Assembly (NCBI RefSeq): GCF_018986435.1
Contig: NZ_JAHMIN010000043.1
Coordinates: 13,303 to 49,113, forward strand
From: Hahella sp. HN01
Lineage (GTDB): Bacteria; Pseudomonadota; Gammaproteobacteria; Pseudomonadales; Oleiphilaceae
DNA length: 35,811 nucleotides
Reading direction: 5' to 3'
Shown: in pieces, positions 748-29,001 of the stretch
Layout: the number at the start of each line of letters is the position of its first letter
Position numbering within the stretch: the stretch's first letter is position 1
Position numbers and translations under genes: made by a program
Notes under the pieces: model-generated
Seen by the model: the letters and a program-made list of their open reading frames with translations, nothing else
What the model was told of the DNA's origin: nothing
Databases searched by the model: none

Positions 748-1746
748 TTAACTTCCTATCCACACTCGACCAGCTGACAAAACCACGCCCAACATGGTTT
801 CTCCACTGCTAACCGACTTTAATTTGACTCGATCGCCCACGTAAGCGTCATGCATGGCCTCAGCTCGACTGCGCAGATAAACCGTGCCAACACGCACTTC
901 AACAGAAACAACGTCGCCGTTCTTAACTTCCGGAACCGCCCTTAGCATATCCTTGGTAATCGGCTGGCCCGCCCCGACCCGTTTTGAGAACTCTTTACCT
1001 TCAAAGTCCTTTTTCAATGCAGGCTCAATTCCCGCCGCAGCGACATCAATCAGCTCTCTCTTCAAAGGATGAGAGCCCACAGACATCCCCCTATCCGCGT
1101 CTACTGAGGGCGTCCAAACTTCCCCCATAGCTGATACTTCAAACCACACTGGCGCACTATTAAGCACTGCGCCAGAAGCGTCGACGATATCCATCCAAAC
1201 ACATATGCGGCGAGACAAAACACCCATTTCCAGAGGGCGAACCTGTATTCCCGCCATCTGTTTAGAAACCAGAATGTTTCTTTTCCTGGCGCTTACCGGC
1301 GTTACCTCAACCTCTTGAAAGCCGGCTTCGACAAGCCAACGCTTTAAATAAGCGCCAGCCTTTTCTTCTAGAGCATCCGGGTCAATCTTTGCAGCTGCAA
1401 CCTTAAGCTGGATATGATCCGGCCCTTCCAATCTCCATGAAGGCATGCTTGCATTTGAACTCCAACGCGCAAGTTGCTTTTCTATTTCCACCTTGGAAAT
1501 AGACTCCGCACTAAGCTGACGTGGTGAAAGTTCAATAGTCGGCAACTTATTTTCATCCTGAGCCGGGTCCAATCGAACCGCCCCGAGACGACTTAACTCG
1601 ACTTGCATGACCTGCTTTCTCGCCCCTGGTTCGTTTACACCTATCAAGGTTGCATATGGGCTTAGCATCAGGCGATTTTCAGCCACACACGGCAGGCTGC
1701 ATATTCCTATCGCCAGGCACCCAAATAAGCGTATCAGTACTGACAT
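748..1746 (-). CDS. flgA: FlgA, P-ring assembly chaperone, with long N-terminal region
   Basis: FlgA is the periplasmic chaperone that helps FlgI assemble into the P ring. A signal peptide is visible (MSVLIRLFGCLAIGICSLPCVAEN). The C-terminal part, roughly residues 180-332, reads as a FlgA/SAF-type domain: APVWFEVSAMGEVWTPSVDA, then ISKDM-like PITKDMLRAVPEVKNGDVVS, and AEAMHDAYVGDRVKLKSVSS followed by a V-x-S-A-G-R-V-W-I end. At 332 residues it is about 100 longer than typical FlgA, the extra length being upstream of that domain. ATG at 1746 is the start; no strong ribosome site precedes it, so coupling from flgG (stop 18 bases upstream) is likely. Position between flgG and flgH supports the call. 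Confidence 0.87.
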   Translation of the reverse strand: MSVLIRLFGCLAIGICSLPCVAENRLMLSPYATLIGVNEPGARKQVMQVELSRLGAVRLDPAQDENKLPTIELSPRQLSAESISKVEIEKQLARWSSNASMPSWRLEGPDHIQLKVAAAKIDPDALEEKAGAYLKRWLVEAGFQEVEVTPVSARKRNILVSKQMAGIQVRPLEMGVLSRRICVWMDIVDASGAVLNSAPVWFEVSAMGEVWTPSVDADRGMSVGSHPLKRELIDVAAAGIEPALKKDFEGKEFSKRVGAGQPITKDMLRAVPEVKNGDVVSVEVRVGTVYLRSRAEAMHDAYVGDRVKLKSVSSGETMLGVVLSAGRVWIGS

Positions 1747-1764
1747 CAGAAGCCGCGCAAGAGA

Positions 1765-2529
1765 TTAACCACGAAGGTCGTTTGTAATCTGCATGATTTC
1801 ATCCGCCGCTCTGATGACATGAGAGTTAGCTTGATAGCCTCGCTGAGCGGTCACCAGCTCCACCAACTCTTTCACCAGATCAACGTTCGAACTCTCCAGA
1901 AACCCTTGTTGAATCATTCCCAGCCCATTGGAGCCTGCTTGCGAATAGAGAGGCGCTCCAGCGTCATCCGCCGGAATGTAAAGCCCTTGCCCGGCTGATT
2001 CCAAAGCCTGATCATTGATGAACTTGGCCAGCTGTATTTCGCCGACTTCAAGAACATCTTCGCCAATCTGTACCTTCACCACGCCGTCAGTGGAAATCTG
2101 CATTTTTGCGGCATCAGGCGGAATCTGAATCTGATCTGAAAGACGCAGTCCTGTAAGTGTGGACAGGTAGCCGTCCTCATCGATCTTGAGCGCGCCGTTT
2201 CGGGTATAGCCGTACTCGCCGTTTTCCAGCATGACCTCAAAGAAACCGTCTCCGCGTATCGCCAGATCCAGTTGATTTTCAGTAGCTTTCAGGTCTCCAG
2301 AATCAAATTGCATGGTGACTTCAGCGACCTTTGTTCCCATTCCGACGGAGTTAACCCCTTTTCTTCCCGCCGCTGACGTTGCGGGTTGACGGCTGATCAA
2401 GTCGCCAAACGCCACCCGACTTTTCTTGTATGCGACGGTGTTAAGGTTCGCCATATTATTTGAGATGGTTTCAATCTGCTTCTGACCGGCTTGTAGACCA
2501 GTTTCAGCTACATACAACGCATCAATCAT
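1765..2529 (-). CDS. flgG: FlgG, distal rod protein
   Basis: FlgG is the main distal-rod subunit of the flagellar axle, exported by the flagellar type III apparatus. The 254-residue protein has the standard rod/hook N-terminus with heptad-like helix (ALYVAETGLQAGQKQIETIS, then NNMANLNTVAYKKSRVAFGD) and the C-terminal helix LVELVTAQRGYQANSHVIRA. The middle holds the FlgG signature DLAIRGDGFFEV. Length matches the family (about 260). ATG at 2529 is preceded by AGGAGAT at good spacing. flgF lies 12 bases upstream and flgA 18 bases downstream, consistent with one transcript. Confidence 0.95.
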   Translation of the reverse strand: MIDALYVAETGLQAGQKQIETISNNMANLNTVAYKKSRVAFGDLISRQPATSAAGRKGVNSVGMGTKVAEVTMQFDSGDLKATENQLDLAIRGDGFFEVMLENGEYGYTRNGALKIDEDGYLSTLTGLRLSDQIQIPPDAAKMQISTDGVVKVQIGEDVLEVGEIQLAKFINDQALESAGQGLYIPADDAGAPLYSQAGSNGLGMIQQGFLESSNVDLVKELVELVTAQRGYQANSHVIRAADEIMQITNDLRG

Positions 2530-2541
2530 GAACCGTATCTC

Positions 2542-3249
2542 CTAAAATTTTCCTAAGGTGCTAATGGCGCTATCTATAGAGCCGTCATAGGCTTTCAGCA
2601 CGTTATGCGACAATTGATAATGACGTGTGAGTTCAACCAGCCTTACGATCTCTTCCATTGTATTGACGTTGGACATTTCCAAATAAGACTGCATAACCTG
2701 GGTATCTGACGCCTCAGTTGAAGCCTGCATAGACGGATTTTCGAAAAGCCCTTCGCCGGCGTAGCTCAGCTGTTCGGAATTCTGAAATACGGCTATCGCC
2801 AGCTTGTCCAATACAACACCGTCCTGAACAATTGAGCCGTCTGGCTGCACTTCAAAATCAGCATCACTCAGCGCAACAGGTCCACTACGCCCTAATACTC
2901 GCTCCCCGGTGACCAGCCCCAGATAGCCGTCTGGATTCAGGCGCAGTTGACCTTTACGAGTGAAGAACGTTTTATCGCCGGAAGAAGCCATAAGAAAACC
3001 CTCTCCATCCAAAGCGATGTCCATGGCGTTCCCAGTCATCTTGAAAGCGCCCTGTGTAAAGTCTTTCTGCAGCGTCAAATCTGGCTCTAGTTTCGCTTCA
3101 TTCATAAATGCAGTTTGAAACTTATCCACGATCAATTGGTCACGCTTATATGCTGGAGCGCCTTGATTAGATAAGTTCTGACTAATAGTCCGTAAACGTT
3201 CCAAATCAGCATTCAAGGTAAGCTGAATTGCACTTACTACGTCAGCCAT
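2542..3249 (-). CDS. flgF: FlgF, proximal rod protein
   Basis: FlgF is a rod subunit below FlgG. The 235-residue sequence begins VVSAIQLTLNADLERLRTIS followed by QNLSNQGAPAYKRDQL and ends with VRLVELTRHYQLSHNVLKAY, the paired terminal helices of axial proteins. The central MDIALDGEGFLMASSGDKTF matches the FlgF/FlgG core. It is more divergent than the neighbouring FlgG: the usual NNxAN at the N-terminus is QNLSN, and the C-terminal MI.xxRxyexx pattern reads VRLVELTRHYQL. ATG at 3249 has AGGAAGGAAA upstream. It starts two bases after the flhA stop, so it is read from the same message as the export genes. Confidence 0.88.
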   Translation of the reverse strand: MADVVSAIQLTLNADLERLRTISQNLSNQGAPAYKRDQLIVDKFQTAFMNEAKLEPDLTLQKDFTQGAFKMTGNAMDIALDGEGFLMASSGDKTFFTRKGQLRLNPDGYLGLVTGERVLGRSGPVALSDADFEVQPDGSIVQDGVVLDKLAIAVFQNSEQLSYAGEGLFENPSMQASTEASDTQVMQSYLEMSNVNTMEEIVRLVELTRHYQLSHNVLKAYDGSIDSAISTLGKF

Positions 3250-3250
3250 A

Positions 3251-5344
3251 TTAACTTTCCTTCCTTTCTTTATTCGTCGCGCGGTTAATCAAGCCACGAT
3301 CGACTTCCACAATAGAAAAAGATTTGATGTTCATACCGACAGGAACCTCGGTTAACGCCAACACAGTAAGATGAGGCAATAGTCGACCTGACAGTTTTCT
3401 TATATGCCGGCGAATACCAGGTGAGGTAATCAGCACAGGCTTCAAGCCGGCTGACATCATTTTCTCAACCTGACGAGCCATGCTGCTTAACACCTGCTCC
3501 GTCAACTTCGGATCGATATATAAAGACGCACCTTGTTCCGTCACTCTGATGCCGGACTGCATCAGCTGCTCAACTCCCGGATCCAAACTCATAACATGAA
3601 GGTAACGGTCCTGCGCAACCAAATCCTGGCAGATTTCGGCGCCGAGTTTTTGCCGCACTTGGTCCGCTAACTGCTCATGGTCCTTACTCACTTTGCCTGC
3701 ATCGACCAACGCCTCCGCGATAAGCTCAATGTTCCTGATAGACACTTTTTCCTGTAGCAGTTGCTGCAGCACTTTTTGAATATCAGAGAGCGTCAATGTA
3801 TTGGGAACCAGCTCTTCATACAGAGAGGACTGCGCAGTACGTACCCTTCCCATCAGTTTTTCTGTTTCTGATCGAGTCAAAAGGGCCGGCGCTTGAGACC
3901 TGACCGTTTCATTTACATGAGTCAGCATCACGGTTAGCGGGTCAACCAAGGTACAGTTAAACTGCCGCGCTTTTTCTTTTAAATTCTCCTCAATCCAGAC
4001 CGCAGGCAGCCCATAGGTAGGGTCTTTCACCGACACCCCGGGCAATTTATCCGTCAGGTCCTGCGCACTGATCGCTAATATTCGATCGGAGTACAACTCG
4101 CCTTCAGCAACTTGAGCGCCATGTACGCAGACTTTATATTCGCGTTCATTATTGCGATCTGTCTGATATATCTTCACATTCGGTAAAACGAATCCCAGCT
4201 CGAGCGCCAGCTGCTTGCGGAGCCTCTTGATCTCTTCCATCAAAGCGCCTTCACTCGCCCCTAGATATCCAGCGATAGCGGGCCCAAGAGAAATTTCCAA
4301 AGGTTCTACTTTCAGCTCTTGATAGATGTCCTTTTCTGCATCTTCCTGATCTTCGACGTTATCCTCAGCTTCCTGGTACTTGTTCTGTTTGAAGGCGTAC
4401 ACCACCAACGCAGCCATCAGTGAAGCGACAATAAAAATCGGGAGCGCCGGGATTCCTGGCAGAAGCAATAATGAAAGCAACCCAAGAGTAACGATGACAA
4501 GGCTCTTTGGATAACGAGTGACCTGCCTGGATATTTCATCGCCCAGGAATGCGTCTGTCGCTGCGCGGGTGATGATAATGCCTGTTGCAGTGGAAATAAC
4601 CAGTGCGGGGATCTGAGTGACAATGCCGTCGCCAACTGTCAGCAAAGTATAGTTGTGAAGCGCTTCACCCCAGCTAAGGCCTCGCTGCGCAATCCCAACG
4701 GTTAACCCGCCAATTATGTCGATCAGGATTATTAAAATACCCGCAATAGCGTCGCCTTTCACAAACTTACTGGCGCCGTCCATTGCCCCATAAAAGCTGG
4801 CTTCACGCTCAATATTCTGACGCCTCTCACGAGCTTCTTTTTCATCAATGAGCCCCATGTTCATGTCGGCGTCGATACTCATTTGTTTACCCGGCATGCT
4901 ATCCAGGGTAAATCGAGCGGCTACTTCAGCCACCCTTTGGGCGCCATTGGTGACCACCACATACTGAACGACAATCAATATGAGAAAAACGACAAGTCCT
5001 ATAACGTAGTTACCGCCCACAACATAAGTGCCGATGGCGTTAATCACATCGCCAGCATCGCCATCGGACAAAATAAGTCGTGTTGCGGCGATATTTAGAG
5101 ACAGCCGAAAAAGCGTTGCGATAAGCAACAAGGAAGGAAAGGTTGAGAATCCCAGTGGTTTATCAACAAAGAAAGTTAATAAAAGGATCAACAAACCAAA
5201 ACTGAAATTGATAATGAGCAGCACATCCAATAGCTGCGAGGGAATAGGTGTAAAAAGCACCAGCAGTATGCCCACCATTCCCAATACAAGCGCAAGCTCG
5301 CTGCGTGTTCCCAGCAATGAAGCCATCGACGGTCTATTCATCAT
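3251..5344 (-). CDS. flhA: FlhA, flagellar export-gate protein
   Basis: FlhA is the nonameric inner-membrane export gate that receives substrate-chaperone complexes. The 697-residue length is normal. The N-terminal half is a chain of hydrophobic segments. The FHIPEP-family signature stands at about residues 137-175 (QRVAEVAARFTLDSMPGKQM, followed by SIDADMNMG and the charged DEKEARERR loop). The C-terminal half is the cytosolic domain, with acidic linker VEDQEDAEKD near residue 330. ATG at 5344 overlaps the flhB stop as ATGA; a second ATG follows at 5341. GGGG lies about nine bases upstream. The gene is flanked by flhB and flgF in one operon. Confidence 0.96.
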   Translation of the reverse strand: MMNRPSMASLLGTRSELALVLGMVGILLVLFTPIPSQLLDVLLIINFSFGLLILLLTFFVDKPLGFSTFPSLLLIATLFRLSLNIAATRLILSDGDAGDVINAIGTYVVGGNYVIGLVVFLILIVVQYVVVTNGAQRVAEVAARFTLDSMPGKQMSIDADMNMGLIDEKEARERRQNIEREASFYGAMDGASKFVKGDAIAGILIILIDIIGGLTVGIAQRGLSWGEALHNYTLLTVGDGIVTQIPALVISTATGIIITRAATDAFLGDEISRQVTRYPKSLVIVTLGLLSLLLLPGIPALPIFIVASLMAALVVYAFKQNKYQEAEDNVEDQEDAEKDIYQELKVEPLEISLGPAIAGYLGASEGALMEEIKRLRKQLALELGFVLPNVKIYQTDRNNEREYKVCVHGAQVAEGELYSDRILAISAQDLTDKLPGVSVKDPTYGLPAVWIEENLKEKARQFNCTLVDPLTVMLTHVNETVRSQAPALLTRSETEKLMGRVRTAQSSLYEELVPNTLTLSDIQKVLQQLLQEKVSIRNIELIAEALVDAGKVSKDHEQLADQVRQKLGAEICQDLVAQDRYLHVMSLDPGVEQLMQSGIRVTEQGASLYIDPKLTEQVLSSMARQVEKMMSAGLKPVLITSPGIRRHIRKLSGRLLPHLTVLALTEVPVGMNIKSFSIVEVDRGLINRATNKERKES

Positions 5345-6453
5345 GTAGCGGCCCCTTTCACGCTAAACTGATCTCTCCCCTGCCGTTCTCTTTTGATTTG
5401 ATAAGCGCGGCGTAAAGCCCTTGCCACCCCCACAAACGCATCCTCTGGAATCATCGAGCCAATCTCAGTTTTCTTGAACAAATAACGGGCCAGCGGCGGA
5501 TCTTGAATAATGGGCACCTGATGCTGACGCGCCAGGTCCCTTAAGTGTTTCGCCATGGCGTCCACGCCTTTCCCCGTCACTGTCGGCGCAGCCATTCTTT
5601 TTGCGTCATACTTTACAACCACTGCGTAGTGTTCCGGGTTAGTGATAATCAGGTCCGCCTCAGGAACACTGGCTGCGGAGCCAGCGCGCTTACGCAGCTC
5701 CCTTTCCAACTCTTTCCTTTTCGCCCTGATGTGAGGATCGCCTTCGCGCCTCTTTATTTCATCTTTGACTTCTTTCTTAGTCATACGCATGTTGCGCATG
5801 AACTCCCAACGGGTGAACAACATATCAATGACTGCAATCAGCAATAGCGCCGCCGTCAGTTTGAAAATAATGCCCGCAGCATATCCGATGAATGACGGCA
5901 ACGCCGTCGCCGCCGACTTGGCGGTTAGCCCAAAAAATTCCGGCATCAGGTCAGCCAAAGTCCAGTACAACACACTCCCCAACAACGCCAGTTTGATCAG
6001 GTTTTTCCCCAGCTCAAACAATATCTTGACTGAGAACAAACGCTTAAAGCCTGCGATTGGATTGATACGCTTAATGTCAGGTTTGATTGGATGGAAAGAA
6101 AATACAGGACCTGTTTGAGCCATTGAGCACAACACGCCGATAACCATCATTACAACCAGCAACGGACTCAATATCCAGCCTATCTCCGAGATAATCCAGA
6201 CGCCCCAGGTTCTGACCGTCATAATGTCAAAGTCAACAGACGCCGCATCTGCAAACAGCTTTTGACACAAGCTGAAGAAACGCGTGGCGAGATCCTGCGA
6301 TACTGACCACAATAGCAGCGCACCGGCGGCGAGAGCGAAGACATGATTGACTTCCTGACTCTTTGCCACATTCCCTTTCTTCTTCGCCTCTTGGAGTTTA
6401 AAGGGCGAAGGGGGTTCGGTCTTTTCAGACTTATCCGGTTGCGACTCTGCCAT
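5341..6453 (-). CDS. flhB: FlhB, export switch protein with NPEH cleavage site
   Basis: FlhB sits beside the FliPQR pore and switches export specificity after autocleavage in its cytosolic domain. The 370-residue protein starts with the usual charged leader (SEKTEPPSPFKLQEAKKKGN), has four hydrophobic segments (about residues 37-52, 88-112, 150-168, 185-213), then the basic linker MTKKEVKDEIKRREGDPHIR. The autocleavage motif, NPTH in most of the family, is N272-P273-E274-H275 here (bases 5629-5640), followed by YAVVVKYD. The Asn-Pro bond is intact, so cleavage should still be possible; what the Thr-to-Glu change does is unknown to me. ATG at 6453 is seven bases after the fliR stop. Confidence 0.96.
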   Translation of the reverse strand: MAESQPDKSEKTEPPSPFKLQEAKKKGNVAKSQEVNHVFALAAGALLLWSVSQDLATRFFSLCQKLFADAASVDFDIMTVRTWGVWIISEIGWILSPLLVVMMVIGVLCSMAQTGPVFSFHPIKPDIKRINPIAGFKRLFSVKILFELGKNLIKLALLGSVLYWTLADLMPEFFGLTAKSAATALPSFIGYAAGIIFKLTAALLLIAVIDMLFTRWEFMRNMRMTKKEVKDEIKRREGDPHIRAKRKELERELRKRAGSAASVPEADLIITNPEHYAVVVKYDAKRMAAPTVTGKGVDAMAKHLRDLARQHQVPIIQDPPLARYLFKKTEIGSMIPEDAFVGVARALRRAYQIKRERQGRDQFSVKGAAT

Positions 6454-6460
6454 AATTACT

Positions 6461-7231
6461 TCAGACGACTGTCAGCATTCCGCTCCAGTAGCGGAATATA
6501 GAAATAAACACTTCTCCAATTAATGGAGTCAGGTATTTGAGTGAAAGCGCCGTCACTCCGATCCCTAACGCCACTTTTAATGGCAGAAAGAGAAAGTAGA
6601 CATTCATTTGCGGCATCGTCCTCGCCATGACCGCTACGCCTACATCCAATAAAAACAACACCGCCAGGACCGGCGCCGCAAGCACCATTGCGAATGAGAA
6701 CATCAGTCCCACCTGCTTCATAGCGCCATTAAAATCCATTCTTGCTAAACCAGAGCCCGGAGGCACTTGGGCGACACTATACGCAAGCCCTTTAATCACC
6801 ATGTGATGCGCATCCATGCTAAAAAAAACGAAGGTGGCGAAAAACAGCAGTATTGTTCCCATCAACGGCTCCGCCGAGTTTGTTGCGGGATTCATTATAT
6901 TCGCCGCGCCGAAGCCTGACTGAAAGTCAATCAGCCTGCCAGCTATCTGAAAGACGGTAAAGGCCGCATGAAGACCTAAAGCCATCGCCAACCCTAGTAC
7001 CAACTCATTCGCACAGGCTAACGCCATCTCGACTATTGAAGATGGCATTTGCGCCCCCGCAGTCGGCGAGAAACGCACCATCAACAAAGCCAGGGCACAA
7101 ACCAGGAAAAACCTGATACGCCCAGGTAAACGTCCAAACATATCAAAAGGAGAAGCCATCACCACTAACGCCAGACGTATGGACAGGAGCCACCAGGCCC
7201 ATGCCCAAGAGAGATCAATGGTGAAGTGCAT
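6461..7231 (-). CDS. fliR: FliR, flagellar export-pore protein
   Basis: FliR is an inner-membrane component of the FliP5-FliQ4-FliR1 export pore. The 256-residue protein has several hydrophobic segments and the family core: MASPFDMFGRLPGRIRFFLV near the N-terminus, ALACANELVLGLAMALGLHA, then IDFQSGFGAANIMNPAT. The C-terminal region (MPQMNVYFLFLPLKVALGIG) matches FliR's conserved Q-x-N-v-f-f-x-g-p-l-k pattern. It begins three bases after fliQ and ends seven bases before flhB. Length and order (fliQ-fliR-flhB) are the normal arrangement. Confidence 0.94.
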   Translation of the reverse strand: MHFTIDLSWAWAWWLLSIRLALVVMASPFDMFGRLPGRIRFFLVCALALLMVRFSPTAGAQMPSSIVEMALACANELVLGLAMALGLHAAFTVFQIAGRLIDFQSGFGAANIMNPATNSAEPLMGTILLFFATFVFFSMDAHHMVIKGLAYSVAQVPPGSGLARMDFNGAMKQVGLMFSFAMVLAAPVLAVLFLLDVGVAVMARTMPQMNVYFLFLPLKVALGIGVTALSLKYLTPLIGEVFISIFRYWSGMLTVV

Positions 7232-9693: not shown

Positions 9694-10641
9694 GTGAGAA
9701 TCCAGCAAATGTTGCCTCCAAATCATAAAACTAGAATATATCACGCTTATCGTTCTCTAGAGGGACTATCCGTAGGTGATGCGCTTGGTCAATGTTTTTT
9801 TATTGATGAGGAGCTAGCGCTTGAGCAGATAGTTGCCCGCAAAGAACCCCCTTCTATCTGGCATTTCACAGACGACACAATAATGGCGATAAGTGTTTTT
9901 GAGACCCTCTGTAAATTTGGGCATATAGATCAGGATTTTTTGGCGGAGCGGTTCGTATATAGATATAAAGAACAGCCAGATCGAGGGTATGGTGGGACCG
10001 CTCACAAAATACTCAGAGACATAGGTAATGGCATTCATTGGTCTGAATCCGCAACAAATGCATTTAGTGGAATGGGCTCTATGGGGAACGGAGCAGCTAT
10101 GCGTGCCGGCCCTATCGGCGCTTACTACTATGACGACTTTGATCGAGCAGCAATAGAAGCCAAAGCGTCTGCAGAGGTCACACATGCCCATTATGACGCC
10201 CAGGCAGGGGCAATTGCCGTTGCCATAGCAGCTGCATATTGCACCAGACATACATCTAGCGAAGCAATTAACTCTATAGACTTCTTAAAGACTATAATTA
10301 ACCACACCCCCGACAGTGATACAAAATCGAGGATTATCAGAGGACTAAGCTTACCAATAGACACTAGACTTTATACCGTAGTTAAGCAGCTAGGGAACGG
10401 GATCGAATTATGCTCCTTTGATACAGTCCCTATTTCTCTTTGGTTTTCCTCACATTACATTAACTGCTTCAGTGATGCGATTTGGGAAACTTTATCAGCT
10501 CTGGGAGACAGGGATACTACCTGTGCTATAACAGGCAGCATTGTCTCCTTAAATCATTTAAATGTAATCCCTCATCATTGGATTGAGAAGCGAGAACCGC
10601 TATCACAATTCCTCAACATTGACCACCAATTGCGCTGGTGA
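9694..10641 (+). CDS. ADP-ribosylglycohydrolase (DraG/ARH family), probable immunity enzyme
   Basis: Enzymes of this family remove ADP-ribose from modified proteins, classically from arginine, using two Mg ions. The 315-residue protein has the family motifs in order: GDALG (28-32), metal-binding F-T-D-D-T (58-62), GNGAAMR (131-137), an H-x-H patch (164-166), and GDRDTTCAITG (271-281), which stands for the usual GGDTDTxAAIxG with both aspartates kept. It has no long N-terminal extension. GTG at 9694 is used; ATG at 9709 is an alternative and neither has a strong ribosome site. It converges on the toxin's small partner gene and overlaps its 3' end by 29 bases. G+C is about 37% at 10261-10320. 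Since the rhs tip reads as an ADP-ribosyltransferase, a toxin-reversing immunity role is likely; DraG-like immunity has a precedent in the Tre1/Tri1 pair. Confidence 0.88.
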   Translation: MRIQQMLPPNHKTRIYHAYRSLEGLSVGDALGQCFFIDEELALEQIVARKEPPSIWHFTDDTIMAISVFETLCKFGHIDQDFLAERFVYRYKEQPDRGYGGTAHKILRDIGNGIHWSESATNAFSGMGSMGNGAAMRAGPIGAYYYDDFDRAAIEAKASAEVTHAHYDAQAGAIAVAIAAAYCTRHTSSEAINSIDFLKTIINHTPDSDTKSRIIRGLSLPIDTRLYTVVKQLGNGIELCSFDTVPISLWFSSHYINCFSDAIWETLSALGDRDTTCAITGSIVSLNHLNVIPHHWIEKREPLSQFLNIDHQLRW

Positions 10642-10939
10642 TCAATTTACCGGCTTTTAGGTCTACAACACTATCTCCGGTTAATTGTATTGCACCACTA
10701 TATCCGTCAACAATTTCGGGAACGTCCATTCGAAGACACTGAATACCTACCACTGTCAGCTGCACACGCTCAACCTCAGAAAAAACTACAGACTTGCAAT
10801 CATCATCATGCTTTTCAAAAATCGGCTTATATTGATACAAAAAAACATCGCCGATTGCTATTGGTCCATTTATGCAACGTCCAGCAACAGTAACACTATC
10901 ATCCCCCCTATAAATATCATCCACTTCAAAAGTAATCAT
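10613..10939 (-). CDS. Small EF-Tu domain-2-like protein, candidate immunity partner
   Basis: From ATG at 10939 (GGAAAA nine bases before it) the product is 108 residues; a TTG at 10951 would add four. No signal peptide or membrane segment. The sequence MITFEVDDIYRGDDSVTVAG, then RCINGPIAIGDVF, VERVQLTVVGIQ, and SGAIQLTGDSVVDLKAGKLI follows the beta-barrel pattern of translation-factor domain 2 (F-x-V-x-D-v-f, v-v-t-G-r-v, G-x-i-x-v-G-D, G-x-n-x-g-l-x-l-x-G, v-x-x-G). It starts 29 bases after the rhs stop on the same strand, the usual immunity-gene position. Whether it binds the toxin, acts as a decoy or does something else is unknown. The resemblance is mine by eye. Confidence 0.7.
   Translation of the reverse strand: MITFEVDDIYRGDDSVTVAGRCINGPIAIGDVFLYQYKPIFEKHDDDCKSVVFSEVERVQLTVVGIQCLRMDVPEIVDGYSGAIQLTGDSVVDLKAGKLITSAIGGQC
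10619..10645. terminator. Hairpin at the overlapping 3' ends, possible bidirectional terminator
   Basis: TTGA-c-CACCA, a seven-base loop, then TGGTG-a-TCAA form an inverted repeat with one mismatch, covering the hydrolase stop codon and the last codons of the small convergent gene. The T-run on the plus side is weak (TTT), so efficiency is doubtful. Confidence 0.3.
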
Positions 10940-10968
10940 TTTATTTTCCAAAACTGTATACCTTATGA

Positions 10969-13900
10969 TTATTGCGTCAACAATTTAGCACGTCGAATAT
11001 ATTCTGCAATTTGCTGTGCCGTCATATTAGGCGACTCACGTAATGTATCAGAAATAATAGTCTTGTCTCCACTCAACCTCTGTGGAACAGAAAACCCCAT
11101 ATCCCGTAGTATTTGGGAAGACTGCTCTACAGATATCTTATAGGGAGCCCTCCGAGCAAGCTCACTTGCTTTTAGCGGAGCAAACACTTCTCGCTCTAAC
11201 TGAATTAGTGTTGTTGTTTCTTGCCCCTCATGAACCATGCCCAACTCTACCTCAATCTCCAAATCAGTTCTTGAGCCAAAATATACTGAAGTACTTATTC
11301 TTTCCGATGTTTTCCTTTCGACTGCAAAAATAGTAGCCCGGAGTGGGTCTAAGGAAGTGGGAGTTTTACCCCATACTTCCGAGCCCTCGCCTCCTGGAAT
11401 ATGTGCATCAGAACGTGTTCCACGAAATACATACAAATCACCAGTAGTTTCCATAAGCTCATCAATCTCCTTACGACTCAAACCGGTGGCGCTTATCCCT
11501 TTGTACTCTTCATTAGTTAGTGGTCGTACTCTACCACTAAATAACCGAACACGAAGCTCACTACTACGACTCAGGGCTCTTTCCATAGTAAAGACCTGCG
11601 ACTCAGCAGAGAGCGCCAATTCCGCCACAGCGCCCTTACCCACCCCAACTGCCTTAGGTAGACCAAGCGCACCTAGGATTCCTTCTCCAAACATCTCCAG
11701 CACACTACTGGCCCGTTCAGAGCCACCAGCAAGCCTTAGACTTTGATAATCCCTAAAATAGGCCGCACCTTCATCGCCAACTACCCCACCGTCCTCTGCT
11801 ATTTGTCCAACTAAACCTATCATAAGGTCTCGGCCAAACTTATCCCCCAGTACTCCTGGGCCTCGTGGGTCCATCGGATAAACATCCTTAACCCACCTTG
11901 TGTACCCGTCTCTCATCTCCCGGGTAAACTGAGTCTCAGAGAATAGGCTTACCTGTAGCGCCAAATGCTCTGGCTGGTATTTGGCGTCTAAAGCTGCTTG
12001 ATAGAATTCTTCTTCCGTGGCTGTATCGTAATATTCTCTCCACTCATCAAGTTCGGCGTCTTCGCCAGGTTGATAGTGAACCCAGTTTGCAGGCAACGAG
12101 CCGCCATTTTCCGCAATGATTGAATCATAATCATCGCGACGAATCATATCGTAGGACTCGCCATCCATCAGCCCTCCACTATTTAGAGACGCGGACAGCA
12201 GTGGATCTGAGTATAGGTCAGTAACATGTTCCTTTATGGAGAACATTTTAAACAGCGCACCTTTGGCCTGCTCAGTCCATTCAGTTACCTTGCCTCCTAG
12301 TGGGCTCGCGATCGCGGCGCCAAGTGGGTTGCCGAAGACATCTGCGGCGACTTGCATATAGTTGAACTTGCCATGACCATAGGCCGCTTTATTGGCGACA
12401 CTGCTGGCGGCGCCATTGATGAACGCACCACCCAAATCAAAGTTCATGTCGCCGACAGAGTAGTTCAGCTTGTCGGTATATTTACCAAGATCAGAACCTC
12501 CCAGTATGTTGCCTACGCCCGCAGTCAGAACGCTGGCGGACAGAGCGCGCCAATTGAAATGCTCTTGTCTGCCTACCGCCATGGAAACCGCTTGACGGGT
12601 AACCGACTTAACCGCCGCATGCCCAGCCGCCTGGTAGAGACTCAAAGTCTTCCTGGCTTTATCCGCCTCTCCAAGAAGCTCATAACCAACCGCCGTGGAA
12701 ATACCGTCAATCGCCACGTCTTTCCATGAGAAGTGCAGGCCTTTCTGTTGACCCGTAATAATGGATCCCATCTGAGTGATCGCAGAGCTGACGACGCCCG
12801 CCGCCAACACACCTGCGCCAACACCTGCAACAGCTCCAAGGGAGCCTCCTATAGTGGTCGCGACTGAAGCGCTCACCGCCCCATAGGCGGCCAACCCAAC
12901 CCCCGCCGAGACAACAGCCACCGCCACAGCGACGATCAACATAAATGCAGAGCCGCATTTACCGCCATGTTTGGGCGGTGGAGGCTCCGGCATAGTAGGC
13001 GTTGTATCCCCGATAATGGCTCGTGGATTGTATGGCTTGAAGGTATCCGCCGTGTTATGCAAGTTGGATATCATGTTGGGAATGCGCAGCGGCATTCCCT
13101 CTTGCAGGTCATCCACCCCGCGCAAACCATTGGCGTCAGCAATCACATACCATAGGCTTGCATCGCCATATACCGCAGCCGAAATGGTCTGAAGCGTATC
13201 GCCTGGGTTAACGACGTAAGAGCTTGGCGTACTGCTGGGATACTGCTCGCTGACCGGCGTATAGTTCAGATCAAAATCATCCGTCTCCTTACCGCCCGCC
13301 TTGCCAGCCATACCAACTTGTTTGCCATTGGCGTAGAACAGATATTGATTCTGTTCAGATTGTTTACGGACGAGTATCTTTCCTTCTGCGTCGTTGATCA
13401 TGCTGCGGTTATTACCAGAGTCTTTCTTATCTTCGACTCTGACTAAGTTACCGTTAACGTCATAGAAGCTGTAACTGTTTCCGCGCTGGAAGTAAGTTGA
13501 GTTCCCCCACACTTCCGTCTCTTTGTAACCGTCATATTTGTTGGTATACAAATAGGAAATCGTGTTGGTGTATTTCGTTCCAGTGAACGTCTGCACCTGG
13601 TACTGATCGACGTTCCCGTTAGCGTCATACCAATAGAAGTCAGAATTATCTACATCGAAATAGCGCACTTCAGAGATACGCTGGCCATCTTTGTTATAAG
13701 TAACCGTCTTATGCTGCAGCCCCCAGTCATTGTAGGCGGTGCTTCGAGTTTCTTTCTTACTGCCGCTCTTGGCGTCATAGTCGACAAATTTAATTTGGCG
13801 CCCTGCGCTATCGTATTCCCTGGAATTCACCAGAACGTTATTAACTTTGGTTTGCGCCAGACGGTTCTCTGCGTTGTAAAGATACTGCTCCGTCACCTCT

Positions 13901-16900
13901 TCTTTTCTGGACTTATCATATTGAATTGAGCGTGCGCGCGAGCCGTTCAACAGATAGTTGATATAAATACCCTGTTGCTGAGTCTTAACTATCTTGCCGT
14001 TGACCAGACTGCCCTGACTGACTGTGATCTGATTTGTTTTATTGTAGTTGTACCAATAATCGTAAGACTTCCACTCTTTGTTTGCGGTAGACGCTCCCGG
14101 TGCATAGTCCTTGATATACTTGGCGAAGGTATGTCGACGATTGCCCACGGCATCGTACTGATACTGGATTTCCACCATATCGTCTTTGACGCTAACTATT
14201 CGGTTTTCACTGTCATAGCCGATAACGCTGTTTTTATACTGAACGCCATTCTGCCAGAAGCCCTCGAATACCCGATTGCCAACCGCGTCGTAGCGATAGC
14301 TGGTTTTACTATTTACGCCACTGTCGACAATGTCCTTCTGCTTACCGTCGTCATAGTAGCTATACGTCCGGTTCATCCCATTGCCGTTAGTCTCTTTCTG
14401 CAACAGTCCGAGCTTGTTGTAAGCGTATTTAGTGACAACGCCTCCCAGGTTTTTATAGCTATCAGCGCGGCCGAAATAGCGTGAGGCCCTAGATTCGAAT
14501 AACCATTCACGCTTGGCTTCAAGTCCGTCAACTTCCATTGTCTTGTTGCCCCGCTCGTCATATTCGTATGCGTAATAGCGGAACTTATTGCTGCCAGTGT
14601 CAGCGGTTTTCTTATTAATCCCCCGGGTTTCAATCAAGTCGCCGCGAGCATTATATATGTAACGGGTCCCCATCCCTTCCGAGTCCCGCTCAATGATACG
14701 GTGGCCCAGCTCATCATACGAATAACGTCTGACCTCTTTGCCGTTGCGCTCGACCAGGACATTGCCAACTTTGTCGTACTCACGATAAGTGACATGATCA
14801 ATGGCGTCCGTCACGCTCAACTGATTGCCGAACATGTCGTAGTTATAACGAGTTACCGCCTGATTGCCGTCCATGGTTAACAAGAGCTGGCCCGCTGCAC
14901 TGAAAACCTGATGCGTGCGATTACCATTGTCGTCAATAGTTCTTAACAGGTTGCCTTGGTAGTCATAAGCATGTTGCGTCGTTACTTCACGAGTTACCGT
15001 CACACCATTGGCGCCAGTGACCTGAATTCCAGTCTTCCGTTGCCGAATCATTCGATTGCCGGCGTCGTAATCAAAATACGTTTTGTTCGAGGCATTGCCT
15101 GCCAGGACAGCCTCTTTGACATTGCCCCAGCGATCCAGACGCTGCTCTACTGCGGCAACGTCGCCGGAGCGAGCATTCCAGTTGGCGATTGCACGGCCTG
15201 CGTAGTCTGTCTTGGTAATCTGAAAATCCAGCCCACTCCAGTTTGCTTTCGCCACTATTTCACTCAATCTTTTAGATCGGATGTCGACCGAAAGGCTTTT
15301 GAATAAGGCGCTGGAGGCTCCAGCCAGGGTATAACCATAGAGTTTGTCGACACCGTCTTGATCATTGGAATGCGACAGGCGACCTGCGCGATCATACTCG
15401 TAATATTCATATCGATGACTTCCCGTTCCGCGGGCAATAACCTCGCCAAAGGCGTTGTAATCCACCTGCACACTGGAAATACGCTCTGCCTCATAGCCGT
15501 ATCGAGAGCGGGTTTCAATTTGATTTCCGCTTCTGTCGTAGCGATACCACTTCGCCGCCGCCAGCGTGCGATCAACATTCGTCAGGTTGTGCCACTCCTT
15601 AACGACATTGCCAAAAGCATCGTAGGCCGTATTAAAGCGACGACCTTCGGCATCCACTTTCTGAACTTCTTTGCCCCATGCGTCAAAAAATGTGTGGCTG
15701 ACGTGATCGTTCGAGTTCGCCTGAGGCGCAGACTCTAGCGCCTTCGACAGGTCCCCGACATTCGATATGTCTCCCACAAAGCCAACGCTATGCTTCACTT
15801 CTTTCACAACATTTCCAAAAGCGTCGCGAAGAAACTCCGTCACAGGCCTTACAGCGGTAGAATCGGTGGAGGACAAAGTCTGAGGGGACTCCACCACCAT
15901 GACTTCTCTGCCTAATGCATCAAAGAACGTATAAGCCTTCGCCCCACTGGGATCAGTAATGCTTATCCGATTGCCAAGCGCATCGTATTCATAGGTTTCA
16001 ACCAGATCGGTCTTAAATGCATGCAGCGTCTGCACGCTTGAAGGTGTATTTGAATAGTGCGTTACCCCCACTTTGGCGGACCGCACCAAGCGGTTCATAC
16101 TGTCGTAGCTGAACCTGGTAATTTGATCCGAGCCATGTTCGCCAATCTCTGATGAACTCGCGATCATCGCTTCCAGGAGCGTTGAAAAGTCTTTCGCTTT
16201 GCTAACATCCCCTGCGTACGGCGTCGCATAGTCATATTTTTCGATCACGTTGTCATAAGCGTCATATTTGTACGCCGTGACATAGCCTCCGGCATCAACT
16301 TCGCCAATAACTCGACCTTTAACATCGTAAAACTTAAAGGAGTTCCCCCAACCTTGCTGCCCCAAGCGAGACGACTTAAGTACGGATGTTTTCACTATCT
16401 CGCCAAAGCCGTTATAGGTGGTGGAGGTAGTGGGGCTATCTCGGAATGTTTCAGTTCGGCTTACTGAAACATCAAACACTTCCACTTCATTTTGCTTGAC
16501 CAGAACCGCTCGGTTCAGTTTGTCATATTGAGTCGTCAGAGTGCGATCATTCGCCGCCGATGCTTTCAGGGCGGCGCGAACCTGACTCTCACTCAAAGGC
16601 GCTCCTGCGGAATGGCCGGAGACACTCAGTTTATTGGCGTAGCGAATAACGAAGCGTCGGTTTCCAAATGCATCGTATGCGTATTCAGTTACATGATTCT
16701 CGCCATCGATGTCGAAAATCAGCTGATTACGATCGTCATACACCTTGTAAGTGATCGACAACGTTCTATCCGCGGCTGGAAGCGATTGGTCCGTCGTAAC
16801 GCGATTAACAACCGCACGCCCCATGGCGTCATACGTCACTTCATCCAAAATCTGAACGGAGCTGTCGACCCGATCATAATACTGATTAAACAGCTCAGAC

Positions 16901-19900
16901 TTAGGACGGTAGGTGCGAATCTGGCGCCCCTCACTGTCGTACTCGTAACGAGTCGTCCTGGCGAAAGCAGAGCCATCTGCTTCTGTCGAAGCGACTAAGT
17001 TGCCTAAGCCATCATATTCATTACGCTTAACGATATTAGTAAGCTGTGTAGTTTCCGACAGGCTGGAACGATCCACCTGGGTGACGCTGACTTTGGGAGT
17101 CGTCTCCTTGATCATGCGACCGTTGGCGTCATACTCATATGTCCACACGGAGCCGATCTTGTTTTCAAGCTGAGTCAGGTTGCCCTTCGCATCATAGACA
17201 TAACGCTCCACATGCCCTTCTGCATCTGTCGCCGCCGTCTTGCGACCCAGTGCGTCAAACACAAAGCTGGTGCTTTGCCCGGCGACTTTGTGCAACCTTC
17301 CAAGCGTTGACGGCAAAGAGGCGGCCGTGTGCGACTGCTCTAAACTAACGGGAACGCGCCACCGTATGGTTTGAACTTCCCGGCCGAGATCGTCATAGCG
17401 AGACTCAAAAACCTGCCCTGCATTATCAATGGTGAAATGCAAACGGTTTCCGCTACCAAAGATAAATTGCGTACGCCGTTGATCTCCGCGTGCAATACCT
17501 TGCAATTGAGCCTGAATATCTGCAGCAGTCGCCCCTTTAGCGAAAGACTGTTTTACGCCATACTTTATCTGCGCAACCACATTGCCCAGATCGTCATATT
17601 GCTTTTCAGTTGCATAACCCAACGCATCGACACTAAAGCGCTGCCGACCTAAATTGTCATAGAAGAAGCGCTGGGTCTGATCGCCATTATCAGCAACCGG
17701 CTGTATCTCTTTTAAAATTAACGCCAATTTATCGATAGAGGCTACCGGTTTAGCGAAGACCGTTTTGGCCGCCAAACGCCCCGCTCTATCGTATTCCGAC
17801 TTGGTCACAACCCCTTTGGCGTCGATCTCATACTGAGGTCTGCCTAAAGCGTCATAGACTACGCGACTAACCGCTTTCTCACTATTTGAAACGTTAGCAA
17901 CCAATGCCGACAAACTGACTCGATCCAACGCAACAGAGGCTGGAACGGGCTTTTTGAGCATGACTGTCGCCGCGATACGCCCGTTCGCATCGTAGTATTT
18001 AGCAACGACTTGACGTTCGTTATTTACATCAAACAAGACGCGACCGTCTTTGTCGTACACAAACGTATGCGCTTTGTTTTTTGCGTTGTCGACGCCATGA
18101 CGCTGGTTTAGCGCATTTTGCACAGCGGTCGCTGCGCCCATTGTGGAAACGCCATTCAGATAAAGAGATACATCTATCGCCTTGGCGTATCCAACGGTCG
18201 CAATAACACGACCAGATGCGTCATAACGGCTTTCTGTGACGCCCCCTAGCGGATCAATCGCATAAACCTGGCGCCCATTTTTGTCGTAAACAAAGTGAGA
18301 CTCATTATTCAGCGCATCAGTTTTACTAATGACATTGCCATTACTGTCGTAGTGAAATTTAGTAACAACCTTCAGGCCGTCCGGGTCCTCCACCTGACTG
18401 ACCAGTTGATCAAACCCGTCGTAATGATATTCCGTCACCTTCTGATTAGGATTGACCACGCTACCGCGACTTTCCCGAACGCGATTGCCTCCTTCGTCGT
18501 ACTGATAGCTGGTCGCCAACTGCAATCCGCCATCCTGGGCATCCGTCACAATTCGTGTCTGCTTGCCCGACTTATCGTATTCGATATGCGTTTCGCCGCC
18601 AGCGGCGTCGATCGCAACGACCTTGCGCCCCAAGGCGTCATACTTATAGCGTGTGGATAATGCCGCGCCTTCAGGATCCACTGTACGGATGAGTTCACGA
18701 CCCTCAACATCATAGCTGTGAATCGTTGTCAGGCCGGAAGCGTCTGTAGTGGAAATAACTCGTCCAGCCATGTCGTACTGCTGCTGACTTTCAAGGCCGA
18801 GGCTTACGCCAGCGGAGTCCAGCTTTTCAACCTGCAGCAGCGCGCCATTCTGATCGTATTGATAGCGCGTGATATTTCCGACGCCATCGATAATCTCACG
18901 CTTTTCTCCAAACTGGTTACTTTCAGTCCGCACCCGAACGCCTTCGGGCGAAATGACTTCAATAGTTTTAGCCTGGTCGTTGTAGACATATTGTGTCTTG
19001 TGGCCCAACGCATCCGTTTGTGTAGCAATGCGTCCAAAAGCGTCATAGCTGGTTTTAGTCTCTTCGCCCAGCGCGTTGCGGGTCACAATAACCTGACCAC
19101 AGCGGTCATATTCCATATGCTTGGCGTTACCCAGAGCATCCGTCGATTGAGTCAATCTGCCGAAGGCGTCGTAAGCATTAGAAAGCTTGCGAATGTCAGA
19201 ACCGGATTTGGCGACCTGACTGAGGACATTGCCTCTGGCGTCATAAGCATACTCAACGCTTGTAGCGAGGCCAGTCTGGGTCCTTGCGCCCTGCATAACG
19301 GACTTCAGATTGCCGTACTGATCGTAGGTAAAGGACTCTGCTACGTTAAGGGCGTTAATTTCCTTCACTTTCCGGCCTAGACGGTCGAACTGGAAGTAAT
19401 GATGAACGTCCTTTTCGCCCGCCACGCTATTCAGACGCTTTTCAAGCACAGAGGAGTCGCCGCCATTAAGTCCAAGCGTAGAGACTCGTGAGCCGTACTT
19501 TATCGTCTCAATAACCTGCCCGAATACGTTATAGCGCTGCTCTACAACCTCTCCTGAGCCATTGACGGTAAACCTCAGATTTCCCGCCTGATCATAAAAG
19601 AGGAAGCTTTCCTGTCTGGCGCTAACCTTACCGCCAGCCTCACTCAAGACCTCAGCCAACGACCCTTCCGACTTGATTAAGCGGCCTGCCGCATCGTAAG
19701 TGTAGCGAGTTGCATGCTGTCCCCAGACAGCCTCCTTTTGCTCCGCCGTAGCAGCCTGCTCAAGTAAGGCGCCGCCCTTTCCATTCAACTCAGCGATAAC
19801 CCGACCAAAACCATCGTATCGCTTATAGGCGCTTCTCGCAGACTCGCCACTTTTTGACTCTCCCGCAATCTGCTTAATAAGGCGACCTGTTGAGTCGTAA

Positions 19901-22900
19901 ACATAAGTCGTCAGCAAACCTTCCATAGAACGGTGAGAGGAAATGCGCCCTAGCTTGTCATAAGAGAATGTTTCAGTTCGAGATGAACCGCTTTCTGCAG
20001 CATGTATCTTCAGTTCAGAAAGCGGCTGCCCTTGATAGTTGATTGCAGAGCCGTAACGGACGCGACTGAGTACTGAGCCAGAGGAGTCATAGACCACTTC
20101 GGTCAAATACCCTTCTCCGTCCACCTCTCCTACAAGAAGTCCGCGCCCGTCGTATATCTGATAGGCATGCAGGTCAGAAACATTCGCTTGCGGACGAATA
20201 TCCTCCAAGCTCAGATTTTCGAGATGTCCGGCTTTCTCATAGCCGGTATAAGTCGCATAGCGAATGGTTTCTACTTTACGCCCGGCCCCATCATAGCGAT
20301 GCTCTGTCAAATATCCGTTCGCATCCAGTTCTCCCACAACCAAGCTGTCTTTATTGTAAAAAACGCGACTGACCTGCCCCTCTGGTTGCTTGGTTATCGC
20401 GCCTTTCCATTGAATGTCATAGTCGCGAGCGACCCCTTGTTCTGCTGTGATCCGGACTTCGGCCTCGCCTATGACTTGTCCTTGCGTGTTTCTGTACTGA
20501 ATTTTAATGTCGTACGCGCCCTTGGGCGCATTTTCCAGAACCATTTTAAATTCGTTATTGGCGCCCGCTTCCGCCTTCACAAACGTCTTCCGCCCGAGTT
20601 GCGGCACGGCATAATAAGCAACCGCATTGGCAGGAACATCTTTGGCTCGGAAGCTAAAAACGGTTTTACGGACTTCAGTGACCTGCTCACCCATTTCATA
20701 GGTGCAGGTTTTATCCCCGATGGAGCCATCCAACTTGTAAATGGTCATACTGATACGATAGCGACCATGCTCCAGCGCTTTTTCCGTATTCAGATTGACT
20801 TGTCCAGCGTAATCAGCGTACGCGCCGGGATAGGTATAGGCGCTACTGACCAGTCGCCCTGTCGACTCATCAAAAACATCCGCCAGCACATATGCGATTG
20901 ACGCTGCTTCCGTCTTCGTAAACACACCTTGCAGACCAAAGCCGGAAGCCGACTGCTGCGATACATCCGCATAATCAAAACGGGCGTTCAGGCCAATTAA
21001 CTCGCCCTCATTCGCTTTAAATATCCCAACTCCATTACGTTCGCCACCTGGCGCAGAGGATACTTTTACACCTGGCGTTTTGTGACTAATGCGAAACTCG
21101 TAGTATTCCCCAGCTTTCAAGCTGTTAAGCGTTACCTGATACGAGCCGTTCTTTACAGATACCGACGCCGATTGGTAATCCCCTTCACTTCCTGCTATTC
21201 GATATTGAAATGAATGCACTGCACCGCTGCGATTAGCGTATACATTCGCCGGCCATGTCAGTGTTTGACTTATCTTGTCTTTTTGGCGACCGACCTGATA
21301 TTCAAATTTGGGCGTGTGCTCAACCGTTCCGTCTTTATAGTATTTCGTCAAATAGATGTGATAGCGCCCGGCCTCCAACAACCGCCCTGCAGTCAGGTTA
21401 ATTTCACCTTGATAGTCAGAATACGCCACCGGATAAGTATCAGCCTGCCCCACAAAAGTGTTCGTCCCAATGTCAAACACTCTGGCGCGCACAAAGCTGA
21501 TCCGAGCTGCTTCATCCTTGGAGAGATAATGGAGTAAGGAAGCGCCTTCAATAGCATGTGTTTCGACAATATCTTCCGCTATTTCAAATACACCGGTATT
21601 CAGACTATCCGCAGAGACACTGAAACTGCCCCGCCCTTGAGCCAGTAGTTCGCTCTGGGCGCCTTTATAAAGAAGGCTGAACTCATAGTTCTCCGCAACT
21701 GCGGAAGGGATGGTTGCGTAATAAACGCCATTGAGATATTTAACATCGACAGTTTTGTATGCATCGCCACTGTTTAACGGTCGATACTCAAAAACTATGG
21801 ACTTACCTTTGTAATCAAATCCCGAAGGACCTATCCCTGACCAACTCAACGTTTGCTCAATGTTTGAGTTTGTATCGCCAACGTCGTAGTTAAAGACAGG
21901 CTTAGAGACTGTATGACCGTCTTTATAATTTATTGTAAGCCCGACCTGATACATTCCGGCGGCTAATGCGCCTTTGGAACTTAGATTAACAAAGCCGTTA
22001 TAACCGGTGTGCGCTGCCGGAATAGTCAGCGCCCTTGCCACTTCCGCACCATTCTTGAGCACAACAGCTTCAATAGTGCTGACCTTATCGTATTCAGAGG
22101 ACGGCAGATAATTCTTGAGGGCAGCGCCATTAACGCTGTTAATTACCGGTTTGTGAACACTAAAAGAAACAGAAGACTCACCAACTCCCAAACTGCTTGC
22201 AGCGCTTTTACTGGAGTAACCGTTGACTCCCTCCTGAACAATAATAAGGTCTAGCGCTTCGCTTGGAGAGACATCAGCAATATCAACCTGATAAGCGCCA
22301 TCAACGAAGTTCGCCACTGCCGTTTGATAGCTGTCGCCGCTCGACTTTCGATAGCGAACTTCGGTCTGAACGCCGGAGGCGTGGCCGTGCATTTCAATAT
22401 TGTCTACGAGGACGTAATTTTCGCTTAGCGTGCCAGACCCACGTGTTTCGAAAAAGCTGCGTGTATTTTCCCAGCCGGAAATAGCCTGCTCATCTTTCCA
22501 TGCCGAGGAGGCTGGTTGTCCTTTTTCATAGACGCTAATAACACTCTTGGACTCAGCGCCGCTGAACTCAATGACGTAAGTTGTATTGTCTTTTAATGTT
22601 CCAAGATTACTATTTTGCAGCGAGCCACCTGAGCGGTACTGAGCCATAAGCGCATCGGGCGTAAAGAATAAGTAATGCTCGCTCTCTGCGGAGCCACTGC
22701 TCAGTCCCACCTTAAAGTAGCGTTGGGTGGAGCCAGGCCCGGTTGTGACCTCCAGACGATATTTACCATCTTCGGCATATTCAAAGGCGAAGCCGCTATC
22801 AATTCGTTTTACAACGTTTTCACCTGAGGTTTTTACCGTCTTGACCTTCAACGCTCCATTCTGAAGCGAGTAGTAACCGCTATCGCCACTCAGGCCATCG

Positions 22901-25620: not shown

Positions 25621-25702
25621 ATACTCACCCAACAAAAATAAGGATAACAATTCGTTCCGATGCCTCACTCGCGTTCCTGAGTTGAGGTCTTACTTACCAG
25701 TA

Positions 25703-26293: not shown

Positions 26294-26989
26294 TCACCAT
26301 GATTTGGCGACGCCTGCGCGCAATTTTTTAATCGCCACAGAATGAATCTGGGACACTCGCGACTTCGTCACTCCCATTACTTCAGCGATATCCACCATAG
26401 TCATTTCAAAGAAGTAATGATTGGTGACCACAAATCTTTCTACGTCCGACAATTCCGTCAAGAGATCTGCAACCGCCTTTGACTCGAAGATATCATCCAG
26501 TTTTTCATTAGGTGGAGAGCACTCTTCTCTGGCCGTACTCAGGCTATCGTCAACAACATGACTGACCGCCACCTCCAAGACCAGGTTTACCATAGCGTCA
26601 AAGGCATTGTCAGACGCTCCGCCAACAGAGGAGATAGACTCTATACGTTCTTTCGCCAGATCCCTTCGGTATGCAGCCTGACGGCTCCGCTCGGAGTAAC
26701 GATCAAGATTATTAAGGATGTTTCCACGAATACGATAAGTAGAGAATGTCTCGAATGAAGCATCTCCATTCGAATCATATCGCTCTAATGACTCCAGCAA
26801 GCCTATATAGCCAAAATGCAAGCAGTCCGCATATTCAATCCCCAGAGACATATACTGGCGATATGTATTCGCAGCCACCGCATTCGCATAAGGCAAGTAG
26901 ATTTCGATAAGTTTATGTTTGGCATCATTGCATCGTTCTTCCCGATACCGACTCCATAGTTCAACAACAGAATCCTTACTACTATCCAT
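26294..26989 (-). CDS. FliA-like (sigma-28 family) RNA polymerase sigma factor
   Basis: A sigma-70-family factor of the FliA type, which normally drives late flagellar genes. From ATG at 26989 the product has 231 residues; GTG at 26998 would add three but has no room for a ribosome site. Region 2 lies at about 25-95 (LIEIYLPYANAVAANTYRQY, then CLHFGYIGLLESLERYD and FETFSTYRIRGNILNNLDRY). Region 4 with its helix-turn-helix is at about 175-226 (MVDIAEVMGVTKSRVSQIHS followed by VAIKKLRA). The part between is acidic and poorly conserved, so region 3 is weak or missing. Its neighbour set suggests the specific sigma factor of the second flagellum encoded at 1-9214, now separated from it by the toxin locus. 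Confidence 0.87.
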   Translation of the reverse strand: MDSSKDSVVELWSRYREERCNDAKHKLIEIYLPYANAVAANTYRQYMSLGIEYADCLHFGYIGLLESLERYDSNGDASFETFSTYRIRGNILNNLDRYSERSRQAAYRRDLAKERIESISSVGGASDNAFDAMVNLVLEVAVSHVVDDSLSTAREECSPPNEKLDDIFESKAVADLLTELSDVERFVVTNHYFFEMTMVDIAEVMGVTKSRVSQIHSVAIKKLRAGVAKSW

Positions 26990-27076
26990 CAACACCACGC
27001 CTTACTAGGCAAAATCCACTGGAAACGCCCGGCTCACGCCAGACCACCCGAATCCAATACAGGATGACTCTTCCGA

Positions 27077-28845: not shown

Positions 28846-28911
28846 CGTAATTCTCTCTGGATTGAACAAAGTTTATGGCGATCACTTCTGATGCTCGCCA
28901 GCCTTATTTGG

Positions 28912-28938
28912 TTATCCAGAGAATGAACAAATTGTTAA
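28912..28938 (-). promoter_or_regulatory. Candidate promoter of collagen-like copy 1
   Basis: TTAA (28935-28938), 15 bases, CTGGATAA (28912-28919) on the minus strand, about 66 bases before the start. It fits a degenerate FliA-type site; read as sigma-70 it would be TTAACA-N16-GATAAC. The element is conserved upstream of copy 2. Confidence 0.4.
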
Positions 28939-29001
28939 GTTATGACGTTTTTTGTCTACCCAGTACATCGTCGGGTACTAATTACAATGTCCCTTCGCAA
29001 G

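Follow-up and report, generated by a model that had tools for sequence, protein, structure and literature searches.

We examined a stretch of 35,811 nucleotides from Hahella sp. HN01 (assembly GCF_018986435.1, contig NZ_JAHMIN010000043.1, positions 13,303 to 49,113 of the forward strand; source genome size 7.1 Mb). This whole stretch, hereafter the window, carries a giant rhs gene whose C-terminal end is a candidate toxin tip, with a small co-directional gene directly behind it and a convergent ADP-ribosylglycohydrolase gene beyond that. Four features are at issue:

9694-10641, plus strand: ADP-ribosylglycohydrolase gene, an open reading frame (ORF) of 315 amino acids; atypical subtype, convergent to rhs; possible facultative second antidote.

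10613-10939, minus strand: small partner (middle) gene, 108 amino acids, with its ATG at 10939 and its stop at 10613; probably encodes the immunity protein, perhaps a beta barrel of the EF-Tu-domain-2 type.

10969-11565, minus strand: Rhs C-terminal toxin tip, a probable R-S-E/E-x-E ADP-ribosyltransferase (ART), with motifs kept in nine aligned tips.

11566-25668, minus strand: giant Rhs body, the carrier, with Pfam matches to RHS repeats, DUF6531 and LysM.

The whole rhs gene runs from 10969 to 25668 on the minus strand and encodes 4899 amino acids counted from its GTG start; its body matches PF05593 (RHS_repeat) at E=2e-165, PF20148 at E=2.8e-6 and PF01476 at E=1.1e-4. Between the rhs stop and the start of the middle gene, which share a strand, lie 29 bp, and the middle gene and the hydrolase gene overlap tail to tail, likewise by 29 bp. 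Judged by its sequence, the locus is that of an Rhs polymorphic toxin (i.e., RHS repeats, an exchangeable C-terminal tip and a small gene behind it), in which the partner would confer immunity. An earlier note on this DNA, made from the sequence alone, had described the hydrolase as convergent, without a long N-terminal extension and separated from rhs by a third gene, and this layout is borne out.

The tip carries R4749, T4769-P-T-S4772-x-D-P and E4825-x-E4827 (numbered from the GTG start), and both the order and the spacing are those of the R, T-S and E-x-E arrangement of an ART that the earlier note had read there. Its residues R4733, T4755-S4756 and E4809/E4811 are R4749, T4771-S4772 and E4825/E4827 here, its numbers being 16 lower because they were counted from M17 and not from the GTG. 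The relatives of this tip lie in actinomycetes. From the class to which Dactylosporangium belongs, 188 genomes were searched at an E cut-off of 0.05; five passed, and two of these hold real tip relatives, placed at the extreme end of Rhs proteins just after DPLGL. When 200 genomes of a single order were searched with a profile, seven matched, six of them new, which brings the actinomycete tips to eight in all. The DP(L/F)GL end typical of Rhs proteins precedes the tip in six of these eight cases (by eye). The actinomycete tips share 27-36% identity with the window tip, and the motif positions are among the few (nearly) invariant columns of the nine-tip alignment: TPTSxDP and E-x-E each occur in 9/9 tips, and the arginine (of an F-R-G motif) is kept in eight of the nine, including that of the window, with a cysteine instead in the tip of locus L135. 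A profile built from the eight actinomycete tips, leaving the window out, retrieved the window tip from among 7538 ORFs at E=2.7e-17, with the runner-up at 0.41. Such a pattern of conservation is the one expected of an R-S-E, E-x-E ADP-ribosyltransferase, which the tip probably is, and transferase activity is predicted for it.

Searches elsewhere yielded little. Among 97 related genomes the source genome alone matched, with no relative of the tip in six congeners; none was found in plasmids or phages or in 35 other genomes, and none was confirmed by peptide pattern in genome_contigs or viral_contigs. In a sample of the class, 8 of 369 passed at E 0.1, namely the window itself and seven that we judged to be chance matches (<=15.5 bits; tblastn alignments were read for five). 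The remaining candidates from the first actinomycete search were also set aside—L123 and L124 on alignment, and L122 because a profile search of its pieces turned up nothing. Tested against Pfam and NCBIfam, the window tip and two of the actinomycete tips stayed below the cut-off of every model, and PHROGs and PADLOC, searched with the window tip, gave no match.

The middle gene is the neighbor that keeps company with the tip. In each of the eight actinomycete loci a relative of it immediately follows the tip, and for this reason we regard it as the likely immunity gene and regular partner of the tip. With a profile of the eight actinomycete partners, from which the window was again left out, the window gene comes top among the 7538 ORFs (E=1.5e-5; runner-up 0.54). 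By profile and by gene order, then, the window tip and small gene match eight tip-partner pairs of actinomycetes in both homology and arrangement; the two genes thus keep together in different phyla, in the manner of toxin-immunity pairs. With the single middle sequence as query, the window alone passed E 0.001 among 398 genomes of the phylum, 4 of 274 in the class sample passed E 0.01 (the window and three weak matches of <=18.2 bits), and no relatives appeared in plasmids or viral contigs. Neither Pfam nor NCBIfam holds a family for the small protein (window and two actinomycete members).

As to its fold, the AlphaFold model of the small protein is poor (predicted local distance difference test score, pLDDT, of 38), its profile found nothing significant in the PDB, and the single middle sequence placed an EF1A-like chain at the top at a non-significant E of 0.6. 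The pattern of the small protein seemed reminiscent of EF-Tu domain 2, and we tested this by comparing the partner profile by hhalign with 148 E. coli K-12 and T4 proteins, eight of which, translational-GTPase-type proteins, we take to carry a domain of the EF-Tu-domain-2 type. Their ranks averaged 19 among all 148 proteins and 7.4 among the 42 long ones, whereas nine column-permuted partner profiles gave 35-75 and the reversed profile 91; every single score is weak (hhalign probability <=4.5%), with the unrelated cysC, truB, glnL and rnc at ranks 1, 3, 4 and 5 and with bipA at 27 and infB at 71. EF-Tu itself aligned to the partner profile over residues 213-294, presumably its domain 2. The test weakly suggests that the small protein resembles EF-Tu domain 2, and we offer this as a lead. 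A more specific scheme is a long shot: the small protein would be a stand-alone translational-GTPase domain 2 fold that neutralizes the tip as a substrate mimic, the toxin would attach ADP-ribose to domain 2 of EF-Tu or of a related factor, or to a site close to that domain, and the atypical convergent ARH-type hydrolase would serve as a backup (i.e., decoy plus repair).

The hydrolase is a member of PF03747 (DraG/ARH; E=1.1e-43, 150.4 bits against a cut-off of 26.2). The earlier note had credited it with the full motif set of that family, and this holds for the metal site, where TDDT and GDRDT are both present, but not for GDxxGxxxE, in which a phenylalanine occupies the place of the glutamate that we take to be the DraG/ARH catalytic residue. 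An acid stands at that place in 1 of 82 members of the hydrolase clade, and the canonical glutamate is kept in 3/3 other hydrolases found in the source genome. The clade (loci L030-L109) extends over many phyla and mostly shows GDAFG-(E/Q/D)-x-FF in place of GDxxGxxxE. Among solved structures the hydrolase comes closest to ARH3 enzymes (E 1.4e-19 in the sequence search, 3e-32 with a profile), behind which come DraG entries and 6dre, which we take to be Tri1; the NCBIfam model for Tri1 (NF041672) matches from model position 66 with 42.2 bits and so misses its cut-off of 490. The further suggestion that the hydrolase reverses arginine ADP-ribosylation finds no support: with ARH3 enzymes as the best solved matches and the canonical catalytic glutamate absent, cleavage of arginine-ADP-ribose by this subtype is not to be assumed.

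Base composition and strain comparison set these three elements apart from their surroundings. Third-position G+C is 0.40 in the hydrolase gene, 0.28 in the partner and 0.33 in the tip, vs 0.47-0.57 in the eight other segments tested, and none of 1194 stretches of the same length from the rest of the window has a G+C that low. In the congener G001, the window segment 9373-30743, inside which the hydrolase, partner and tip all lie, gives way to roughly 2.2 kb carrying two transposase genes (L116, 15235-17434); with a second congener, G002, the alignment breaks off no more than a base from the same point. The Rhs end region is absent from the six congeners examined.

Other genes in and around this variable segment are noted for completeness. 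It is flanked by a flagellar or type III export cluster (window 748-7231, minus strand; FHIPEP, Bac_export_2, Bac_export_1, Flg_bbr_C, ChapFlgA) with TPR genes; it contains a FliA/WhiG-like sigma factor gene (26294-26998); and beside rhs stand two similar 531-amino-acid collagen-like proteins with G-x-y repeats, encoded in tandem (27274-30597, minus strand) and apparently a duplication (by eye).

We modestly favor the explanation that a giant Rhs carrier here bears an exchangeable toxin cassette, composed of an ART-type tip, its cognate immunity gene and an optional hydrolase layer. The last ~150-200 residues of Rhs would act as an ART-type toxin that spends nicotinamide adenine dinucleotide (NAD+) to modify a competitor, or possibly only hydrolyzes NAD+ there; the ART fold and the toxicity of the tip are both presumed in this scheme. 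The co-directional small gene directly behind the tip would encode the cognate immunity protein, most likely acting by binding the tip directly, and the convergent hydrolase would form an optional second layer, clearing ADP-ribose marks that escape the first. Of the two neighbors, the small gene is the better candidate for the antidote; the hydrolase, unusual in its build, may help on occasion. The two-layer immunity module on a giant RHS carrier proposed in the earlier note thus survives in its components (ART-like tip, hydrolase and third gene) but not in its emphasis, as the regular partner is the third gene (8/8 loci) and the hydrolase accompanies only one of the eight actinomycete pairs. 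That one locus, L139, does repeat the trio: a tip and a partner on the minus strand, pieces of an IS4/5-type transposase, and then a plus-strand hydrolase that is 37% identical to that of the window, of the same Phe subtype and convergent to tip and partner.

Several results weigh against the cassette explanation. On the side of the tip, the AlphaFold2 single-sequence model—the structure prediction that the earlier note had proposed as a check—is poor (pLDDT 48.8); the tip profile met no solved-structure sequence match in the PDB at E below 0.7; and the T4 ARTs ModA and ModB, compared with the tip by hhalign without a permutation control, reached a probability of <=0.8% at ranks 11 and 16 of 148. 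On the side of the hydrolase, the canonical catalytic glutamate is missing from the window enzyme; the other seven of the eight actinomycete tip loci (16.5-19.5 kb each) lack a hydrolase; and among the best 80 of 545 hydrolase relatives in genome_contigs (39-53% identity; fetched flanks at most 8 kb), this tip or partner lies beside none. The presence of a hydrolase is not significant by itself, because the chance of meeting one anywhere in the 137.6 kb fetched round the eight tips, at a density 1-3x that of the window's genome, is p 0.07-0.21. AT-rich tips and immunity genes are, moreover, common in general.

These hydrolase results suit another explanation, which we consider quite plausible if somewhat short of probable, namely that only tip and small gene belong together, as toxin and immunity protein, the hydrolase being a widespread enzyme and an unrelated bystander. 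It is not co-directional with the toxin, its two closest relatives in the class sample adjoin unrelated genes (e.g., GTPases and a CAAX protease; by eye), and an Rhs-like gene, recognized by motif count, is near 1 of the best 80 of 545 relatives, with a different tip. A bystander fits less well with the recurrence of a convergent hydrolase of the same subtype in L139, with the low third-position G+C common to hydrolase, tip and partner, with the lack of a close hydrolase relative in the six congeners (the 34% match in G003 carries the canonical glutamate), and with the aptness of ADP-ribose chemistry to an ART tip. Finding one hydrolase <=2 kb behind a pair, among eight pairs, has a p of about 0.01-0.03 at the same assumed density of 1-3x, a figure that is post hoc. 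The recurrence in L139, this post hoc p, the shared composition, the variable segment and the absence from congeners therefore incline us, though not strongly, toward a facultative second layer over a bystander, and the hydrolase may be a facultative, occasional second antidote with a protective role.

The one Rhs-like neighbor among those relatives is in Nannocystis pusilla (L042, 8001-13302), where the Rhs-like gene converges with a hydrolase gene of the clade described above. Since the tip of this Rhs-like protein looks deaminase-like by eye, we dropped the locus as a precedent.

It is unlikely, in our view, that the tip has an ART-like fold and yet acts as an NAD(P) glycohydrolase, draining the cofactor with no target modified, in which case the hydrolase would not undo the damage and the small protein would be the sole protection. 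The E-x-E motif favors transferase activity, and it is invariant here (9/9 tips); an ADP-ribosylglycohydrolase is also nearby in 2/9 tip loci. The present data point to no target, and ART-fold Rhs tips of the glycohydrolase kind are known (Tne5; PMC13285283). Most improbable is that the tip is no ART and its R, TS and E-x-E motifs coincide by accident, for while no family, fold or structure match to the tip was found, these residues belong to the handful of columns that all or nearly all of the tips share, at 27-36% identity to the window tip.

Comparison with described systems places the locus among familiar themes. Tre1/Tri1 consists of an ART toxin with an ADP-ribosylglycohydrolase immunity protein; the window differs in that its hydrolase gene is convergent, falls short of the Tri1 model cut-off and is accompanied by a separate small partner. 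Already in 2012, Tox-ART-RSE tips, Rhs-borne among others, were tabulated with Imm-ADP-RGHD or Imm41, gammaproteobacteria included (PMC3482391). The window shares with that table, as a class-level prediction, an R-S-E ART tip paired with an ADP-ribosylglycohydrolase, and it differs in that its tip matches no Pfam or NCBIfam model. The table lists Imm41 as an alpha+beta protein featuring SF and W. A W is lacking in the window partner, for which reason we dropped an assignment to Imm41, and the weak rank test likens the partner to the all-beta domain 2 of EF-Tu.

Closer in carrier is RhsP2, an RNA-modifying Rhs ART that is occluded by RhsI2 and whose mark is removed by PARG, ARH-like enzymes being inactive on it (PMC11833690). 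The likeness lies in an Rhs ART tip, a neutralizing immunity protein and a mark reversible by an ADP-ribosylhydrolase; the difference is that the hydrolase there is a PARG macrodomain from other bacteria. RhsF, likewise an Rhs tip of ART fold, is held by a small protein lodged in its active site (PMC13324451), and for a single nuclease toxin two disparate binding antidotes are known (PMC13392607).

Given these two-layer and ART/hydrolase precedents (PMC3482391, PMC11699363 and others), the concept is not new. What is new is the tip/immunity family with its convergent hydrolase add-on; a description of this tip/partner family was not found in the literature searched, which left most subscription papers outside its reach. 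The family is common to a gammaproteobacterium and actinomycetes and is covered by none of the libraries searched, and its regular partner, the small gene, can be told apart from the other of the two neighbors. The comparison also flags a widespread clade of ADP-ribosylglycohydrolases without the usual catalytic glutamate.

The nearest counterpart in organization is Bxa, a MuF ART toxin of a Bacteroides stercoris prophage published in 2024, which has two antidotes: BAH, which removes the mark, and Bsi, which binds the toxin (PMC11699363). Compared by description and not by sequence, both loci combine an ART toxin with two adjacent antidotes, an ADP-ribosyl hydrolase and a small binding protein. 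The carrier is a MuF phage protein there and Rhs here, and BAH, an ARH1-like enzyme, depends on a catalytic glutamate, E15, a residue that the window hydrolase lacks at the canonical place. If the window hydrolase does protect, the locus would add a second carrier type to two-layer immunity against ART toxins.

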